64,000 nucleotides of DNA. It comes from Amphibalanus amphitrite. Its lineage: Eukaryota > Arthropoda > Thecostraca > Balanomorpha > Balanidae. Position numbers and translations under genes: made by a program. This document shows positions 1,301 through 52,629 of the stretch, in pieces (the first letter of the stretch is position 1; every line of letters starts with the position of its first letter). The DNA is taken from positions 248,001-312,000 of the forward strand of contig NW_024881709.1 in assembly GCF_019059575.1 (NCBI RefSeq). The letters run 5' to 3'. The notes under the pieces are model-generated. The model was not told the DNA's origin, made no database searches, and worked only from the letters and a program-made list of their open reading frames with translations.

Positions 1301-18446
<17,146 letters not shown>

Positions 18447-23267: not shown

Positions 23268-24400
23268 CTGCCAGATTCAGATTCAGATTCGTTTATTAGC
23301 AATAAGTCCACAGCACGGTGGCTTTTCACCATTGCACGTCAATTGACAAGGGATATAGCAGGGACAAGCACATCACATGCATTCATATACAGACTATCAT
23401 ATAGACATCCAGACAATGACGCGTAAAACGAGCGTTTCAAGGCGGTTGAGACATGATCACACTTTTTAGGTGTCTTTTAAAATTTGTGATACCGGGATCG
23501 AGCCCCAGTTCATTGATGATAGTCACACCGCGGTAACACAGGCGACGTTTACCGGTTTCTGTACGGATACGTGGTAACGTTATTCGACCAGCATTTCTGG
23601 TGGCATGGTCATGGTGCATGTTTGATGGACGCCCGATGGTGCTGAGCAGAGCCTCTGGTTGTCCAGTGGTAATCGTCGACTGAACAGTACAGGCAGTGTG
23701 GTACATGACAAGCTGCTTGGCATCCATCCACCCTAAGCGTTGAAATACATCCGAGACATGTTCTCGCCTTGTCCTTCCGCTGACCACACGAGCACAGAAG
23801 TTTAGAAGCTTCTGAATCCGGTGGAGCTGCGTGCCGTTACACGTACCATACACAGACATACAGTAGCGCACGACAGAAATGACGAGAGCCTGCACTAGAC
23901 AAGGCAGTACGCTCTTAGGTATTGCGTGTTTCGCGTGATTCAGTGCCATCAACATGCCCGTGCATCTTTTTGCCACCGAGCCAATGTGTTCAGTGAATTT
24001 TAAATGCGAATCAAATGTGACACCTAGATTTTTTACAACACTTGTCGCCTGGATCTGAGCTCCGTTGAATTCCAACACGAAAGACTCCATTCCTCTTAGC
24101 ATTGCAGGAGTTCCCATCACTATCATTTGTGTTTTCGCCTCGTTAAGTTTCATCCTATGTTGACAAAACCAGTGGTATAGTGTTCCAAGAGATTGTTCCA
24201 TGCGAGCCTTTAACACGTCCATGTCCTGCTTCTTGCCACTCGTCAAAATCTGCACGTCATCGGCGTATTGTACAATGGTAACATCATCCGGCACATGCAG
24301 GCCCAGGTCGTTTGAGAAAAGCGTGTAGAGCAAACAGCTTAGTGAACCGCCCTGATGCCAGTGTTCATCATTGTTCAGTTCCCTTTTTAAAGAGGCTCAG
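23268..24400 (-). mobile_element. 5'-truncated non-LTR retrotransposon (LINE), RT C-terminal part
   Basis: An open minus-strand frame of about 320 codons ends at 23437. It carries the reverse transcriptase block HQGGSLSC (around 24355-24332), then YADDVQI, the catalytic Y-x-D-D box of the family (around 24265), and a thumb region (KNLGVTFDSHLKF and following). The 3' end has a short tail of tandem AGATTC hexamers (23273-23291), as jockey/CR1/L2-type LINEs often have. The endonuclease domain and the RT N-terminus are missing, and the reading frame becomes uninterpretable above about 24400. It is a dead-on-arrival copy, but the remaining frame is intact, so the insertion may be fairly young. 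Confidence 0.9.
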
Positions 24401-33545: not shown

Positions 33546-34970
33546 ACTAGAGGTACAGGTTTACGCGATAACTGTATGTTTTGATATGTATGATTAACGG
33601 ATGCATTAGTTTGGGTGTAGAAACTTGCATTTTTATTGGTATGATTTTTGTAGAACTGGGTAACTGCTTTTAATTGAACTGTAAAGTATGATGGTGATGC
33701 ATGCGAGTTGTTCGAGCCCTTTGTAAGTTAGGATGTTACTGAACGCAACCCTACCCTACCCTACCCTACCCTACCCTACCCTACCCTACCCTACCCCTAC
33801 ACTACCCTACCCTACCCTACCCTACCATACCCTACCCTACCCCTACACTACCCTACCCTACCCCTACACTACCCTACCCTACCCTACCTTACCACTACCC
33901 TACCTACCCTACCCTACCCTACCCTACCCTACCCTACTCCTACCCTACCCTACCCCACCCTACCCTACCCTACCCTACCCTTACCCTACCCTACTCCTAC
34001 ACTACCCTACCCTACCCTACCCTACCCTACCCTACCCTACCCTACCCTACCCTTACACTACCCTACCCTACCCTACCCTACCCTACCCTACCCTACCCTA
34101 CCCCTACCCTACTCCTACCCTACCCTACCCTACTCCTACCCTACCCTACCCTACCCTTACACTACCCTACCCTACCCTACCCTACCTACCCTACCCTACC
34201 CTACCCTACCCTACCATACTCTACCCTTACACTACCCTACACTACCCTACCCTACCCCTACCCAACCCTACCCTACAATCCCCTACCCTACCCTACCCTA
34301 CCCCACCCTACAATCCCCTACCCTACCCTACAATCCCCTACCCAACCCTACCCTACAATCCCCTACCCTACCCTACCCTACCCCACCCTACAATCCCCTA
34401 CCCAACCCTACCCTACCCTACCCTACCCTACCCTACCCTACCCTACCCTACCCTACCCTACCCTACACTACACTTCCACCGACAGTCCAAGTTTCAGCTA
34501 AATCGGCCCAGAAACGGCTGAGATATTGCAAAAACAAATTAATTGTATTTACTGGCGAATCCCCTTGGCGAGCGGTGCCTTGTGTCGGCCTTCGTTGGCT
34601 CTGATGCTTTTCACTCAACGGTTTTCTAAGCGAACAACTGAGCCTAAAGCACGTGCCCTCTGCTCGGCGCTGGTCGCGGCCCCACCACGTGCACACCGCT
34701 GAACCAACCCCCTCGAAAATTTAATACGACAAATGAGTGCACGCGTCCGACTTGCAGTGAAAATTTCACCCCCGTAGCCCTTACCGTTCCCGAGCAATAG
34801 CGTGTTTTTGCCGATTCTAATGTTAACCCTATGGGCACGCGAGCACACGTGGCCCACATCGCTGTAAAATTTCACGGCCGTAGGTCAACAGACGCCGCCG
34901 CAATAAGCGCTACAAAGTGACTACGTCGCACACGGCGTGGGCGGGGTACTTTTTAGGATTTATAATATAG
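33546..34970. mobile_element. Repeat element with CCCTA array, unit 1
   Basis: The unit begins ACTAGAGGTACAGGTTT and ends GGATTTATAATATAG. Between them lies a (CCCTA)n array (about 33745-34475) with frequent CCCCTA, CACTA and CAATC variants. A unique-looking tail follows, including AGTTTCAGCTAAATCGGCCC and GGCCCCACCACGTGCACACC. The long open frame across the array (33733-34521) is a by-product of the pentamer. A second unit follows directly. Confidence 0.8.
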
Positions 34971-36092
34971 ACTAGAGGTACAGGTTTGCGCGATAACTGT
35001 ATGTTTTGATTAATTATATGTGACGGATGCATTAGTTTGGGTGAGTAGCTTGTATTTTAGCTGTATTATTTGGGTAGATTTGGGTAGCTGTTTTTAATAT
35101 AATAGCGATAGTTGCGGAGTGTCCAAGTTTTTTGTATGTTAGGCCCTTTTTTTAACTCAACCCTACCCCTACCCTACCCCTACCCTACCCCTACCCTACC
35201 CCTACCCCCACCCTACTCCTACACTACACTACACTACACTACACTACACTACACTACACTACACTACACTACACTACACTACCTACCCTACCCTACCCTA
35301 CCCTACCCTACCCTACCCTAGGCCCTATTTTAACTCAACCCTACCCCTACCCTACCCTACCCTACCCCTACCCTACTCCTACACTACACTACACTACACT
35401 ACACTACACTACACTACACTACACTACCCTACCCTACCCTACCCTACCCTACCCTACCCTACCCTACCCTACCCTACCCTACCCTACCCTACCCTACCCT
35501 ACCCTACCCTACCTTACCCTACCCTACACTACCAGCGACAGTCCAAGTTTCAGCTAAATCGGCCCAGAAACGGCTGAGATGTTGCAAAAATAAATTAATT
35601 GTATTTACTGGCAAATCCTCTTGGCGAGCGGTGCCTTGTGTCGGCCTTCGTTGTCAAAGGTCAATGACCTACCGGCCCACTCAGTTTTTTAAGCGAACAA
35701 CTGAGCCTAAAGCACGTGCCCTCTGCTCGGCGCCGGTCGCGGCCCCACCACGTGCACACCGCTGAACCCACCCCCTCGAAAATTTAATACGACAAATGAG
35801 TGCACGCGTCCGACTTGCAGTGAAAATTTCACCCCCGTAGCCCTTACCGTTCCCGAGCAATAGCGTGTTTTTGCCGATTCTAATGTTAACCCTATGGGCA
35901 CGCGAGCACGCGCCGCGGGCGCACCCCCGGCCGCATCATGCCCAAAATTTAATACGACCTACGTGTAAAGGTGGCCCACATCGCTGTAAAATTTCACGGC
36001 CGTAGGTCAACGGACGCCGCCGCAATAAGCGCTACAAGGTGACTACGTCGCACACGGCGGCGGCGGCGGATTATTTAGGATTTATAATATAG
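34971..36092. mobile_element. Repeat element with CCCTA/CACTA array, unit 2
   Basis: Direct tandem copy of the previous unit, 1425 bp downstream, with the same start, tail and end. Its array (about 35158-35530) is shorter and includes two blocks of pure ACACT repeats. The tail carries an extra segment (about 35908-35970) absent from unit 1. No protein is encoded. Confidence 0.8.
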
Positions 36093-42000: not shown

Positions 42001-45000
42001 GCACCAGCGACAGGGCACGCTTCTTCCAGCGGTTCGCCTGGCAGGAGGGGAAAGACAGCCGTCAGTAATGGCAATCGTCCAACCAGCACGCAGCGAAGAA
42101 TGACAATGACTAATCGTCTAGTTTCGCCCGCTATAGTCTACACTGTGAGATAATCTTTACTTTCCACTAAGTCGTTGCTTCATAGTGATGCAGCTTTGAT
42201 TGTTGCACTTGACTTTCACCTGGTTGAAGGCAGCGATGTCGGCCTTTCGCTGCTGGATCTGTCCCTCGGTGAACATTTCGTCGATCATCTGGGTGAAGAC
42301 GGCATGGTCCGCCTCATCGCTTGCGCTGAGTCTGTGGTGGAGAGCGGGTCATTCGTCAATCCAAGAGCCGAGTAGGGCGAGGTAAACAATCAGCAGGTGA
42401 CACGGTCCATCGCTGCTTACGTACACCAACAAATGTAACTCCCACGCTGTAAAGCGACGACCAATTAGCTTCACTCACGCGAACTTGGTGTCCGGCTTGA
42501 AGAAGTTGGCCTTGCGGACCTCCCACGGGTCCAGCTTCAGCTCGTGAGCGATCCTCTGCATCACATTCTCAATACCAGCCACACCTTGGGTGGTGCCTGA
42601 GGACACATGAGGACATCAGGAATGCTGTATGTAAAAAAGTTCTCAGTAGAACACCACAAACGATACACAACAACGAACAACAACAAACGAACACCACAAC
42701 AGCTTTCCACCAACCAAAATGTAACAAATTACGATACACATCCCTTTGGTATGCGGTTAGCTACACGGCAGACAGACGTTACCATGCATCATATCAAATT
42801 ACAATGTGGCCTAATAACAATCTTCTAGTATATGTCATCAACATCCAAACACCTTCCGCACACCCCGCCACTCGTTTCGCTTTCACGAAACCTACCTGGG
42901 CTGCGGCACCAGGTGTTGGCCGCCAGGTCGGTGTTGACGTGTCCCGGAACCACGGTCCAGTTGGTCGCCTGGTACACATTCTGAGCCATCGACACAGCTG
43001 AGAAGGTGGTGGTGGCAGACGAGGCGAACCCGGCGTCACACAAGTAGCGCATCTTCAGGCCCTGCACCTTGCCCGTCTCGTCCACACCAGCCTGCAAAAG
43101 GATGTGGAGCGAGAGTGAAACTGAGTACGCTTTACGTCCAATAAAATTCGTCAACAGCGACTATTAAGTAGCATTGTTGCAGCTTTGCTGGAGGAAAAGC
43201 AGCCCAACGAAAGAAATTAAAAAAAAAACAAGTAAGAAAAAAATTAACTGAGAATGACGCCCTATATTATACTCCAGGTGTTCACAAGATGGAGCAGCAG
43301 CCACCCGCCATACATACCCGACCAGGTATTACAGCCATTTACCTTATACTCGACCAGGTAGGGCAGTCGTCCTCCGAACATCTCCATGTTGGCCTCCACG
43401 TCGAGCACGATGCGCACGGGACGGTTGAGTTTGACGGCGGCCAGAGCCGCGCCCGCTGCGACCGTGGTCGGGTAAGCCAGCTTCCCACCGTAGGCACCGC
43501 CCAGTCGACGAACGGAGACGTTAATCCTGGAAATTAAACATATTTAAACGAAATGGATCACCAACGAACCGATGAATGAATGAAGTCAACACGAGCAAGA
43601 CGGATTGCGGCTGAAATGCATCAGGTAAGCAATTGAGCAACGATAAAGAGGATGATTCGTTTCAGACAATAATAGTTTATCACGAGTGTAAATACTAGCG
43701 TCTTAAACTTCAAACTAGATATGTCGTCTACGATGCTTATCATATCTCAAATTCCTTGTCAACTGCGCGGTTTTTGCCACAGTTTTTTCTTACTTGTGTG
43801 CGGGCATTTTGAGGACCTTGGCCACCGTGTGGTGGGTGTCTCGGATGTCCTGGGTGGCGCTGAAGAGGTCCAGCTGGTCGTCCTCCCTCGGCACAGCGCG
43901 CACCGTCTGCGTCTCCATGTAGAAGTGGTATTGACCACCGATCTGGAACTCACCACTCAGCTGGCGAGGCGCCGCGGCGATCGCCTCTGCGGGACGGAGG
44001 GAGGGCAAAGGTCAGAATAGAGAAGCAGTATGCAATGATAGCATAAATTACATGTAAACGTATTATAATATAAGGCATAATTAACCGTGCATGTCAACTG
44101 TTTCTATCGTATCTAACATACCGTAAAGTGGGGCTATTTGAGACAGTGGGGCTATTTGAGACAGTATTTAAAATCGCTATAAAATGAAGATCGTTTGATT
44201 TTTATGTGATATTTTTGCTCAGGAAGGTGTGGAATCGAACAGCAATTCGCCTGAGCAAAAATTAAGCATAAATTTCAAACGGTTTTTATTTTATAACAAT
44301 TTTAAATACTGTCTCAAATAGCCCCACTGTCTCAAATAGCCCCACCTTACGGTAGCTACAAAGTCACATTTCAACAGACAAACTTCATGGACCATCTGGC
44401 GGCACCGACTGCCACCCAGCCGGTCAGGTCAGGTTTCCCTTTAACAAGTCATGTCAGGCCAGGTCACCGTCCTTACCGTCCACGTTCTCTCCCGTGTTTA
44501 TCTCCAGATGCATCATCGTGTCTGGTTTGATTTCCTGACCATCTGCGATGGCCTCTTTGATGGTCAGAATCGGTCGCTGTACGTCCTCGTACTGGACTGT
44601 GACCAGTGCTGCCGCCCGGCGGGCAATCTCGGGACTATCGGCCACCACCACTCCGATCGGCTGACCGCAGTACTTGACTTTGTCCGAAACAAACAGCTGC
44701 GGGCAGGAAGACGAGAGGCGAGAGCGTTATGGAAGTGCTCAGGGACAACAGGAAGGTCTGCAGAATGCACACATGCAAAATGAATGCGTTGATAGATTGC
44801 ACAACATCACCTTGTTGCAGCATATTATGCAAAACAAACGAGAAGTCAGAGAGATAGCTATCTGGCACAAAGCATAAGGCTGGGAATTAGTTCAGGTCTA
44901 CGTATCAGAGCCATTACCTCCTCCGGGTTCTTGTCACCCTTGATGTTGTTGGTTCCATCGACATCCTTGGCTGAGAAGAACCCTCTCACTCCATCGAGCG

Positions 45001-48300: not shown

Positions 48301-51300
48301 ACACTGGACCTGGATGGTTTGGTTCTGGAGACTATCAAAGCTCGCCGTCACGACCAGCTCCATAGTTTACAGCGCTAGAACGTTCGAGATCTGGTTAACT
48401 AAGTCACTCTGCCAGTCATTTAACCAAGCGTTGGAAGATTGCAAGATGTTTGCCGTTACCGATAGATACGCTATCGGTACTGGGCTACGAGAACGGAGAT
48501 ATAGGTAGCAGTATCGGTAACGGACCCTATTGCTTACGATAGAATCCGGTCGCAAACATCGCTTAGTAGTCAGTATTCAGTATTCCGTGCCTAGACATTA
48601 TAGCTGATCGGTGACTTTATCACGTTTCATTGACCTAACCGAGATATCTTACTGTCACACAACTGAGCCCGGAATCGGACTTTTTTTGTTCCGTTTGTAA
48701 TTAACCCCCACAGCTGTCAACCTAGTCGAACGGAGAGTTAGCCTTCAATCCAGGCCTTTACAGTCCAAACACCTGACTGCTCGTTACAGCAACTGTCATT
48801 TGAGAGCATTAGCCTGACCTTTCTGTAGTTATCAATACCCCACGGCATGCAGCGTGAGCTGTGAACCCACCAGAGCCGGTGTTTCCTGTCACCAGTCTCA
48901 GTGTCCTGCCGCGCGGCACGGCTGCCATGGCCGCGTACAGCTTGGCCAGGCTCTCAGGGAGCGCCCACTGCGCCTCCCCAGAGGACATGGGCAGCGCGCG
49001 GGGACAGCCGGCGCACCGCCCGCCGCCCCCGCCGCCGCCACAGGCGCCACCCGACTGAGACTTGCAGCCGGCCGCCTCCTGTGCACGAGAGAGAGGCACC
49101 GTCAGTCGGGGAGGCTTTACGAGGACGATATTAAAGTCCAGGTAAAAAGCAGACAATTACAGTAGGACAGGGAGGGAAATTTTAAAAGGTTGCATAGACC
49201 ATTCTAAGCCCAGGAACAATATGTTTCGGTGAGCTCGCGTGAACTTCAGAGTACTGGCGCTATGAAAGGGCGAATTCCACGCGATTTGATAACAAGAGTC
49301 GCGTGGACTGTGGAGTAGAGAGATTGATAATATCGTATCCGGGGCGCGGGGTATATTGACACTTCTCTGAGGCCATTGATAACGGTAACAGCGCCACGTT
49401 ATGAAAGCACCTAAGTTCCTAGCGGTCACCATTATGTGGCGATATGAATGAGATACGATACACATAATGCACTCGTTTCGTACCATTGATTAAAGTATCA
49501 GTAGGGACATGCATTTTTTATCCAACTATACGAACCCGTGTCCGAGTTACAGAATAACTTAAAACTTAAAAGCTTTAGGTACGAAAGCCGAAAATCAGCC
49601 CAGCAGCGATGAGGACGTCAAACGGCGTTCAATTACATCAAGCACGGTAAACTGTCAATTAAATCAAATTTCACACGGACGCGGTCACGCAGCGCCCTCC
49701 TAGACCCAATTATGCAGCAGCCAAACCAAATATCCAGTAAATGGCAATAGCAAAGCTGCGTCATACTAATTGGCTCACCTCGATATCTTTGACCATATCC
49801 TTGGTCTTTTGATCGGCGTCAGCTCCGAACGTTTTGAAGGCGTCCAGGATGGGCCGGTAGCCGGTGCAGCGGCAGAGGTTGCCGTCCATGGCCTGTTCGA
49901 CGTCCTCCTTCGTCAGCGTGTCCCGCGACTCCAGCAGACTGTGGAAGGCGGTGACGGAAGAGATGTGTCAGAGCGACAGCAGCTGGGTGATACTGTATAC
50001 AATACTAGTTAGAGATACCAATGGGTAGACAGTTGCATATCGGATACGAATGCAATGAAGCGCTGGAAATGGTACCTTTCGTTTATGCTCAAAGCATAAC
50101 AGGAGGGCGAGGAATAGCCAATGAGTCGCAGTTTTCGAACAAAAGCTTGGCGGAACGATCATACACCTGCCTAGTGCAGTCAACCACGACCAACCGTGAC
50201 GACCAACATTAACCATGTGAATGTTTCCACCATGCGATCCGCTGTTTACCTGTACATGGGCATGACCATTCCTGGACTGCAGTAGCCGCACTGAGCGTAA
50301 TTACTGGTCCATTACCTGTACATGGACATGACCATTCCTGGACTGCAGTAGCCACACTGGGTGTAATTACTGGTCCATTACCTGTACATGGACATGACCA
50401 TTCCTGGGCTGCAGTAGCCGCACTGAGCGTAATTACTGGTCCATTACCTGTACATGGACATGACCATTCCTGGGCTGCAGTGGCCGCACTGAGCGTAATT
50501 ACTGGTCCATTACCTGTACATGGACATGACCATTCCTGGACTGCAGTAGCCGCACTGTGTTCCGTTCAGCTGTGCCAGTCGCACCTGGATGGGGTGGTAG
50601 CCGTTCTTGCGGTCACCGATCGCCTCCACGGTCTTCACCTGCGATCAGTGACATTGAGACGTGTCAACAATTAAACGACATATTGTAAAGAGGTAAACAA
50701 AAACGACGAAGGTGGTGAGAAAAGGAACGTTTAGGCGACGTTAGGTTTAAGAAAAATAAGTCACCAAAAATCTCATTGAAGAACTTAAGTGCAAAAAATG
50801 AGTGACTGCCAAAATGAAATAAATACATAAATACTATTTCGGTAAGAAAAATTCGGTTGCGCGGTCTGGCAAAGGCTCTCGTTACCTGCCAGTCCTGACA
50901 GACGTGCAGCGGCACCAGGCACGAGTTGACCGCCTTGGTTTTCATCACGCCGGTCGTCGGGTCGGGCACCCTCACCGACACCACGCAGGCGCCGCAGCCG
51001 CCCTCGCGGCACATGGTCTTTGTGCCGGGCAGGCGGCGGGTGAAGCGCAGGTAGTCGGCCAGTGAGGTGGTGGCTGATACGTCCCCCGAGGCGCCGTCCG
51101 GGGATAGACGGTGTAGCACTGAGGGTGCAGGGTCAGAGTGAGGTCAGGTTGGGGTCGGTTTGTGTCAGGTGAGAGGTCAAGTCACGGTCAGGTCAGGGTC
51201 AGAAGTCAGGGTGAAGTCAGGGTGAAGCCAGACAAGTGTGAGGTCAGGGTCAGATCAGGGTTAGGTCAGGGTAAGGTCAAGTGAAGTTAGGGCGAAGTCA

Positions 51301-52629
51301 GGGTGAAGTCAGGGTAAGGTCAAGTGAAGTTAGGGCGAAGTCAGGGTGAAGTCAGAGTGAAGTCAGGGTGAAGTCAGGGTGAAGTCAGGGTGAAGTCAGG
51401 GTGAGGTCAGGCTCAGGGTGAAGTCAGGATGAGGTCGGGGTAAGGGCAGGGGAGGTCAGAGTCACGCCAGGGTCCTGGTCATCTTAGAGCCAGGTCAGGT
51501 TCAGTGAGGGTCAGGTCAGGTCATGGCATGGTTACTGGTTAGGTCAGGGCTAGAGCAGGGTTAGGACAGAGTCTGGGCAGGGTCAGATCGGGGTTACGTT
51601 GGGGTCAGGGAAGGGTCAAGACAGGGCGGGCCAGGTCGCAGGTCGTTGTCAATATTGCAGAGAATAAAGCATATTGCTTTCCTAAAAATGATAAAATAAA
51701 TCAAAGATGCCATAATGAATTAGCTAATGCGACTTAACTAAAAATATCGGTGAATATCTATAACCTTTGATACCTAATGTTTACCTAATGTGCAGTTACC
51801 TAATGTTTAAGTGTTAAATGTTTGCGTATGACCTTAACGGCTGAAATAAATATAACGTGAAGTAAAATAAAACGCGAGCAGGACAGTCGGACACAAATAA
51901 CGATGAGACACACGGGACACACCGACAAATACTTATTGGACCATTATCATGCCTATTGACGCAATTGTTGATAACGTCTCATCATTCACCTGCCAGGTTC
52001 TTTTGAACGATTTAGGCGGTCGTGAACCACGAATGGAGTTTTTAGTCATTACACAGTCAGGCATTCAATAAACCCGGCGGCTGAATGCATACAGTCTGCG
52101 ACTCTGCTCGAAGGAGACGGTATAAAGCGGACCGAAGTAGAGCTCTTTCAGCCCACCGTCCCTCCGTATATGTTTTAGGGCCTTGGAACAGACGAGGAGC
52201 GTCCGGCCCGGCCGGTCCGCGACGTCTCTCAATATACCCTGCCGGCCGGCTCGCCCGACTGGCCTTGAAGACATCCCTCGCGCCGCCGCATAGCACCATG
52301 GCATTATGCCGCGCCCGGGGCTATCACAGTGACTCGCAGATTCACAGGCTGGCAACTCGGACAGGACAATCACTTCAGCGGGGGGGGGGGGGGAATAAGG
52401 CAATAAGACGGTCCAGGGTCTACCGAAAGCAAACAACGTGACACTGAGAACGCATGAGAGACGTGTCTACTACGGACGATGGGGGGCGGGGAGGGTGGAG
52501 TTTTTCCTCATAGGAAAGTCAGAAGCCGAGACGTTACGGATTACGAATCTGTCAGGTGCACTGACCTTTCTGCGGCTCATCGTTGATGGTGAAGGTGACG
52601 GCCGGTGACTGAACGTCAGAGGTCGGCAT
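39099..52629 (-). CDS. Aldehyde oxidase (molybdo-flavoenzyme), 25 exons, complete
   Basis: Minus-strand exons: 52566-52629 (ATG), 50886-51118, 50514-50638, 49779-49938, 48871-49078, 47782-48108, 47309-47436, 46905-47030, 46258-46425, 45719-45884, 45282-45397, 44918-45001, 44477-44696, 43794-43986, 43343-43526, 42896-43091, 42479-42596, 42220-42331, 41879-42037, 41562-41690, 41057-41181, 40455-40701, 40004-40100, 39654-39761, 39099-39169 (TGA). All junctions are GT-AG and in phase, giving 1287 residues, close to the family length. The xanthine oxidase family oxidises aldehydes or purines in the cytosol, passing electrons from a molybdenum cofactor through two [2Fe-2S] clusters to FAD. Aldehyde oxidase fits better than xanthine dehydrogenase. 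At the position of bovine Glu802 there is Leu789 (GGAYGGKL), Arg880 is Gln871 and Phe914 is Pro899, while Arg912 (Arg897), the catalytic Glu1261 (Glu1232 in GEPP) and Gln767 (Gln647 in CGQPIG) are kept. Intron 1 is 1.4 kb; most others are under 800 bp. Confidence 0.95.
40371..40454. repeat. Tandem repeat of donor-flanking sequence, aldehyde oxidase exon 22
   Basis: TTTATTCTCTTTCAGACCTC followed by CCCCCAC occurs at 40371-40397 and again at 40424-40450. CAACCTCCCCCCACTGACC (40405-40423) duplicates the bases carrying the GTCAGT donor of exon 22. Confidence 0.7.
41465..41562. repeat. Degenerate repeat after the exon 20 donor
   Basis: On the minus strand the donor GTGAGATATCG is followed by GCGAGATATCGGTCTTGTCG and then TATATCTCGGTCTTGGCGG. 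These are two or three loose copies about 40-50 bp apart. Confidence 0.4.
44119..44354. mobile_element. 236-bp palindromic MITE in aldehyde oxidase intron 13
   Basis: It begins TACCGTAAAGTGGGGCTATT and ends with the reverse complement (GGTGGGGCTATTTGAG when read from the right). Each arm contains two copies of GTGGGGCTATTTGAGACA. The outer TA pairs fit a Tc1/mariner-type target duplication. It is non-coding. Confidence 0.85.
45719..49078 (-). CDS. Aldehyde oxidase exons 5-10: linker and FAD domain
   Basis: Residues 195-569. Exon 5 opens with a Cys/Gly-rich linker containing seven consecutive Gly codons (around 49023-49043), unusual for the family, then [13 protein letters not shown] of the FAD-binding fold. 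Exon 6 holds [20 protein letters not shown] and FPSDVFLLL, which resembles insect aldehyde oxidases. Xanthine dehydrogenases have an ASLGGNI-type loop there. Exon 8 gives VNAAFLLPV and exon 9 the end of the FAD domain. Exon 10 encodes the segment leading to the molybdenum domain. Confidence 0.92.
48109..49778. other. Aldehyde oxidase introns 4 and 5, no other feature
   Basis: Intron 5 (48109-48870) and intron 4 (49079-49778) flank exon 5 (48871-49078). Neither intron holds a recognisable gene or repeat. Confidence 0.4.
49779..52629 (-). CDS. Aldehyde oxidase exons 1-4: two [2Fe-2S] domains
   Basis: Residues 1-194. The plant-ferredoxin-type cluster uses Cys58, 63, 66 and 88 ([11 protein letters not shown]...NSC). 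The second cluster uses Cys128, 131, 163 and 165 (QCGYCSPG and CRCTGYRP). All eight ligands are present. The first ATG is followed directly by the FTIN strand that opens the family's ferredoxin fold, so this start is preferred and no targeting peptide is apparent. The donor end of exon 3 is repeated in the intron (see the 66-bp array). Confidence 0.93.
50248..50555. repeat. 66-bp tandem array copying the exon 3 donor junction of aldehyde oxidase
   Basis: ACCTGTACATGG followed by CATGACCATTCCTGG recurs at exactly 66-bp steps (unit starts at 50248, 50314, 50380, 50446 and 50512). The rightmost copy is the real 3' end of exon 3 plus its GTAATG donor. The four others lie in intron 3. Each copy contains the 41-nt coding end that includes [10 protein letters not shown], the second Fe-S cluster motif, a following GT donor and a preceding CAG. 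Confidence 0.92.
51125..51640. repeat. AGGTCAGGGTGA-type minisatellite in aldehyde oxidase intron 1
   Basis: About 500 bp of degenerate repeats built from GTCAGGGTGAA and AGGTCAGGGT. AGGTCA is also the nuclear receptor half-site. The rest of the 1.45-kb intron is AT-rich and featureless. Confidence 0.85.

Follow-up and report, generated by a model that had tools for sequence, protein, structure and literature searches.

In human segmental-duplication genes, variable internal tandem repeats have been described at exon-intron boundaries, where they can create introns or activate splice sites (PMC2812944). Intron gain by tandem duplication has been described and an AGGT model of it named (PMC4974935), and in Cryptococcus CNN00420 repeat expansion creating introns was put down to slippage, unequal crossing over or conversion (PMC2395259). 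Recursive splice sites, or ratchet points, in which AG is directly followed by GT, are described mainly from long introns (PMC8605326). The window analysed here, a 64,000-nt stretch of the genome of the barnacle Amphibalanus amphitrite, holds an aldehyde oxidase gene in which the end of exon 3 is repeated in tandem across the exon-intron boundary. Among the papers listed by searches on duplicated splice donors and on barnacle aldehyde oxidase, none appeared to report this array.

The array belongs to the same class of event as the boundary repeats, the tandem-duplication intron gain and the Cryptococcus repeat-borne introns. Like the human repeats, it consists of head-to-tail units crossing the boundary, and its unit number varies between paralogues (5, 2, 2, 2 and 1); unlike the cases in that account (PMC2812944), the barnacle paralogues are old (they differ at half of the fourfold sites), a 5' donor lies within the unit, the identity of the linker exceeds that of the gene, and the locus is known here from DNA alone. 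As described in PMC4974935, tandem duplication over the boundary supplies extra splice signals, but, differing from the description there, the barnacle copies sit inside an existing intron with no sign of a new one. Near-identical repeat units with splice sites are shared with CNN00420, whose introns are given with EST support (PMC2395259), whereas the 25-nt barnacle spacers are too short for introns. The copies end in ACAG/GTAA (a slash marks the junction), with AG and GT juxtaposed as at ratchet points (PMC8605326); unlike those, the barnacle intron is short, and it was read here as genomic sequence only. The duplication of the splice-donor region is real; it is probably tolerated and not a row of switch exons.

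The 41 nt at the end of exon 3 and the adjoining 25 nt form five tandem copies with a period of 66 bp at 50246-50557 on the minus strand (Table 1). Over the same interval TRF reported period 66, 4.7 copies and 95% matches, and a second repeat search gave a unit spacing of 66/66/66. The best period-66 self-match was 65 of 66, whereas 500 single-base shuffles of the surrounding 1.8 kb reached no more than 33. A tandem duplication of the exon end with a repeated donor, as put forward in the original prediction, was confirmed by these searches and the shuffle control. The 41-nt copies end on the minus strand at 50514, 50448, 50382, 50316 and 50250, each followed by CAG/GTAA; the first four had been named as junctions and are all copy ends, but 50250 was missing from the list. 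Five 66-bp units had been claimed, which applies to units 1-4 (pairwise differences at 1-4 of 66 positions) but not to unit 5, of which only CAG, the 41 nt and GTAA are common to the others, the downstream sequence being different. Both coding changes reported earlier are real, but the total within the 41 nt is four, two of them synonymous (AGT>AGC and TGC>TGT) and two non-synonymous, too few for a test of coding constraint; of 41 possible transitions, 10 are synonymous. Since the period equals 22 codons, open frames also cross the array in other frames (50209-50565 minus and 50213-50674 plus).

Table 1. Features of the aldehyde oxidase gene and its exon-end array, in window positions.
Feature	Position	Strand	Evidence
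Exon 2, first [2Fe-2S] cluster, CREGGCGAC	50886-51118	minus	
Exon 3, 125 nt; last 41 nt (50514-50554) are copy 1	50514-50638	minus	Pfam Fer2_2, E 1.8e-28, hand-joined exons
Linker 1, 25 nt, begins with donor 1 GTAATG	50489-50513	minus	
Intronic copy 2 (Tyr>His; AGT>AGC, synonymous)	50448-50488	minus	
Linker 2 with donor 2	50423-50447	minus	
Intronic copy 3 (AGT>AGC, synonymous)	50382-50422	minus	
Linker 3 with donor 3; end is ACACCCAG (two further changes)	50357-50381	minus	
Intronic copy 4 (TGC>TGT, synonymous)	50316-50356	minus	
Linker 4 with donor 4	50291-50315	minus	
Intronic copy 5 (TCC>CCC, Ser>Pro), then donor 5 GTAAAC and unlike intron sequence	50250-50290	minus	
Intron 3 if spliced from donor 1, 575 nt, holds copies 2-5; acceptor CTTCCACAG/T	49939-50513	minus	
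Exon 4, remaining [2Fe-2S] domain, SLLESRD...LCRCTGYRP	49779-49938	minus	

In this minus-strand gene, exon 3 ends in the second [2Fe-2S] motif and would join exon 4 at 49938. On hand-joined exons, in two parts, Pfam gave Fer2, Fer2_2, FAD_binding_5, CO_deh_flav_C, Ald_Xan_dh_C, MoCoBD_1 and MoCoBD_2 above the cut-off. The molybdo-flavoenzyme domain set ([2Fe-2S], FAD and molybdopterin in one chain) is therefore present on the exons read, to which the word 'intact' also applies, the joined exons stopping short of the C-terminal end. The Ald_Xan_dh_C match is partial (positions 71-108 of 110 only), and may be so because of a wrong-frame stretch at the start of the second part. The best PDB match of the N-terminal part was 'Aldehyde oxidase 1' (7px0, E 9.8e-105, 36-510), against 3.1e-46 at best for xanthine dehydrogenases; other PDB chains named aldehyde oxidase rank slightly below the latter. 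By this measure the putative enzyme, its substrate aside, resembles aldehyde oxidase more than it does xanthine dehydrogenase. Intron 1 of the gene carries a second minisatellite (window 51175-51459, 11/43-bp period) beginning 57 nt upstream of exon 2, which may provide several CAG acceptor-like sites.

The host genome searched comprised 807,550,619 bases in 2,644 contigs. In the Pfam Fer2_2 search, aldehyde oxidase exons turned up at five or more loci; a xanthine-dehydrogenase-like locus was present on two contigs, and one further contig was bacterial-like, all counts being lower bounds. The xanthine-dehydrogenase-like label rests on a CGFCTPGIVMSMYT motif, as in the enzyme aligned from the PDB search, and in this locus (C705 and C424) there is no intron at this position and the reading continues. 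The bacterial-like sequence (C2440:2153-2365, on a high-numbered contig) holds a Fer2_2 domain without an intron in a 200-aa open frame and is perhaps bacterial contamination of the assembly.

Four of the five aldehyde oxidase loci found have an intronic copy. Counted by sequence, the exon end occurs five times in C212 (the window) and in C77, twice each in C333, C1182, C24b, C17 and C162, and once in C24a. Copy 2 occupies matching positions in C333/C1182, C24b and C17/C162, at 66, 66 and 61 nt from copy 1, but its splice signals are not kept among the paralogues: it is intact in C333 and C1182, the latter with AG>AT before it (CAT), matches at 37/41 in C24b with the donor changed from GT to GC, a rare but sometimes usable form, and is broken by indels in C17/C162, where the donor is gone. 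In C17 and C162, unlike the window gene, exons 2 and 3 are fused without intron 2. Each of the three aldehyde oxidase branches in the tree, whose order is unsettled, contains array-bearing genes. C24a groups beside C24b (support 91/94), and therefore either C24a lost the array or C24b gained it, probably.

As a control, 57 exon matches from nine sequences (114 boundaries) were examined for ungapped copies of their first or last 41 nt within 400 nt; C77 was left out, two sequences contributed one exon each, and exon ends were taken as tblastn match ends. At 26/41 or more, 6 of 57 tails, exon 3 only, and none of 57 heads were flagged, so no other duplicated exon end was found among these boundaries. 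The weakest flagged scores were 29 (C17) and 27 (C162), and the best unflagged score was 24. It is the comparison with paralogues that makes the array more interesting than a lone minisatellite.

The C77 contig carries the same array, 100% identical to the window over a 401-bp region. Around the array, C212 and C77 match exactly for 4,899 bp, and they diverge more further out; they appear to be two haplotypes, or one haplotype represented twice. Because of this identity, the C77 array is not independent proof of the copy number, which rests on one assembly and is better supported by the related two-unit arrays of other genes.

The bases preceding the copies point to an origin from the exon itself. 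In C17/C162 the heptamer CACCCAG stands directly before both the exon copy and the second copy, and it also precedes window copy 4; ACTCAG precedes the copy in C333 and C24b, as in the C24b exon. Compared with the paralogue exons, exact exon-like sequence extends 5-7 nt upstream of eight of nine further copies and 0 nt in the ninth (C1182, CAT), and because exon-like bases precede the copies the copied exon stretch was taken as about 47-48 nt. The CAG before each copy, rightly noted earlier for the window units, looks like the exon's own Gln codon in NGTQ-CGYC. In C333 and C1182, the intron that follows the final copy begins with GTAACGGACTAAACCCA, which resembles the C17/C162 linker GTAACGGACTAATCACCCAG. 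The idea that an 18-nt filler had been inserted at the duplication was rejected, since in the paralogues the linker consists of the intron start and an exon-derived tail.

In the proposed course of events, an ancestral aldehyde oxidase gene would have gained a head-to-tail duplicate of the exon 3 end (about 47-48 nt), its 5' donor and about 13-19 nt of intron. This first duplication may have been guided by ACCCAG, a short repeat present in both exon and intron. The two-unit state persists in several paralogues, decayed in some; it would have been lost, or never present, in one, and have grown to five units in the window gene.

The units have stayed more alike than the genes that carry them. 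Between C212 and C333, identity is 60/78 in exon 3 just upstream, 39/41 for each of copies 1 and 2, 24/25 for the linker between them and 22/75 beyond copy 2, and in other exons 79 of 158 fourfold sites and 170 of 443 residues differ. The chance of at least 24/25 at an expected 0.5 is 8e-7; without GTAA and CAG the match is 17/18, with a chance of 7e-5, or 1e-3 at 0.6, all these figures being for a comparison chosen after the fact. An exon edge that stays alike between old paralogues while the intron beyond is unalignable can mislead gene annotation and estimates of synonymous rates.

Genome-wide, the linker pattern gave 11 matches with up to three mismatches (one in C24, four in C77, four in C212, one in C333 and one in C271), and the reversed control pattern gave none in the genome. 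This linker (linker A) is confined to C212/C77, C333 and C24b, apart from the three-mismatch site in C271, around which no exon copy was found within the 701 bp examined (best 19/41). Outside the gene family there is only that single site, and the linker as a dispersed element was rejected. Across most of an 18-kb stretch C333 and C1182 are collinear, with 99.4% identity along 7.4 kb, and judging by this collinearity they are apparent alleles; their linkers match at only 16/25, which speaks for turnover. The same pair (L012 and L015) is about 99% identical from exon 4 onward and 86-94% before it, a step that suggests a recombination or conversion breakpoint in intron 3.

Part of the likeness of the units may be due to codon or splicing constraint, because the 41-nt core shows 0/10 synonymous differences between C333 and C24a, which lacks the array. 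Coding constraint on the intronic copies themselves was rejected, as the C17/C162 indels argue against it, and conversion with unequal exchange is favoured over constraint. Unequal exchange within the array would keep the units alike, as would short tracts of gene conversion between paralogues, with the exon copy as their anchor, and the gene would tolerate the array through donor 1, which adjoins the real exon and, as the open exons suggest, still yields the correct frame. We regard it as likely, with reservations, that an old duplication across the splice donor was expanded and homogenised by unequal exchange and conversion and is tolerated via donor 1. Two points count against this explanation: conversion tracts so short and ending at the unit edges are unusual, and selection on linker DNA would likewise give high identity. 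The later copies have no demonstrated function.

The donor consensus is CAG/GTAAGT, and all five donors fit it at 7/9 positions; donors 1-4 are also nearly identical in their flanks. When exon 3 is extended to donor 2, 3, 4 or 5, an in-frame TAA follows directly after MSMYR every time. Use of donors 2-5 could thus tune expression, the stop leading to destroyed or truncated transcripts and less enzyme, and the equal fit of the donors and the shared stop would suit this. Against such tuning, two of the four loci with an array have an altered or lost donor 2 (C24b, with GT>GC, and C17/C162), one locus has no array, so that the feature is not kept across the family, and the RNA fold is ordinary (z 0.13), a value on which an RNA structure hiding the later donors was also rejected. 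Competing donors as an expression control are accordingly possible but unlikely. In human DOK7, an SR protein can suppress one of two competing donors (PMC5585400), so that the splicing outcome at the barnacle locus is not predictable from sequence. The locus is a natural experiment in 5' splice-site choice, with five near-identical donors of which only the first leads to a full-length protein.

Selection could instead act directly on the block of linker and copy, for instance because it binds a protein or U1 and so promotes intron 3 splicing, and would conserve it between old paralogues for that reason. Linker A is identical at 24-25 of 25 positions in three diverged loci, among which the intron beyond matches at about the random level (20-23/75). 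The linker of the apparent allele C1182, at 16/25, does not fit this, nor do the 20-nt linker variant in C17/C162 and the absence of a linker in C24a, and we consider direct selection improbable.

The array might also act as a self-healing chain of donors, its exon-edge units moving between paralogues by conversion like a small, gene-family-specific mobile repeat. As at recursive splice sites, AG/GT is juxtaposed at all five copy ends; the pyrimidine fraction before it (0.53) is near that of the exon 3 acceptor (0.59) and below that of exon 2 (0.76). GT...AG spans of 66 nt, linker plus copy, are present and would be the candidates for a gained intron. Under the self-healing model, mis-splicing from donors 2-5 would leave a GT...AG span of 66, 132, 198 or 264 nt, running from donor 1 to the end of the copy used, and taking it out would give back the correct mRNA. 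The exon junction complex of flies blocks re-splicing of spliced mRNA and its loss permits it (PMC8184009), which weakens the model, and we give this reading a similarly low probability. If true, the array could lengthen without penalty, and the exon edge would behave as a small mobile repeat of the gene family via conversion anchored in the exon end.

The original prediction described a row of decoy exons, in which single copies are spliced in as 41-nt cassettes, decoy or poison. AG and GT flank each copy, and the frame arithmetic held: one 41-nt copy, computed for copy 3, shifts the frame and would bring an early stop, while joint inclusion of copies 3, 4 and 5 brings the frame back and leaves it open. 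Lying 91, 157 and 223 nt from donor 1, these three are at distances that permit single inclusion. The pyrimidine fraction before copies 2-5 is 0.47, against 0.76 for exon 2, 0.59 for exon 3 and 0.82 for exon 4 (the last computed with the exon start shifted by two), and the pseudo-acceptors thus appear only moderately worse than exon 3's own. Neighbouring copies are, however, 25 nt apart, against 122 nt for the shortest intron in the subset measured (C333, exons 9-10) and 135 and 139 nt for intron 3 in C17 and C162, so adjacent copies are not plausibly joined; at most two of copies 2-5 are non-adjacent, and joint inclusion of copies 3, 4 and 5 needs two 25-nt introns. The AG apparently derives from the copied Gln codon and is AT in C1182, and copy 2 decays in two loci. 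Cassette use is very unlikely on this evidence, and the decoy row is not supported.

Mis-assembly that inflated a single or double unit is scarcely credible: the basis is a single assembly, with a second contig identical over 4.9 kb, but the units differ in substitutions and the 66-bp period recurs in paralogues on other contigs.

Other repeats were seen elsewhere in the window. Short tandem repeats at 9858-9914 and 10308-10367, and at 44127-44165 and 44308-44345, form pairs of mutual reverse complements about 0.2-0.5 kb apart, a layout resembling small elements whose inverted ends are repeated; the pair at 9.9-10.3 kb has relatives of 79-80% in loci L016, L018 and L019. Two long arrays of an ACCCT pentamer lie about 0.7 kb apart (33748-34471 and 35160-35533). 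On the minus strand, a 319-aa open frame at 23437-24396 looks, by eye, like the end of a non-LTR reverse transcriptase.
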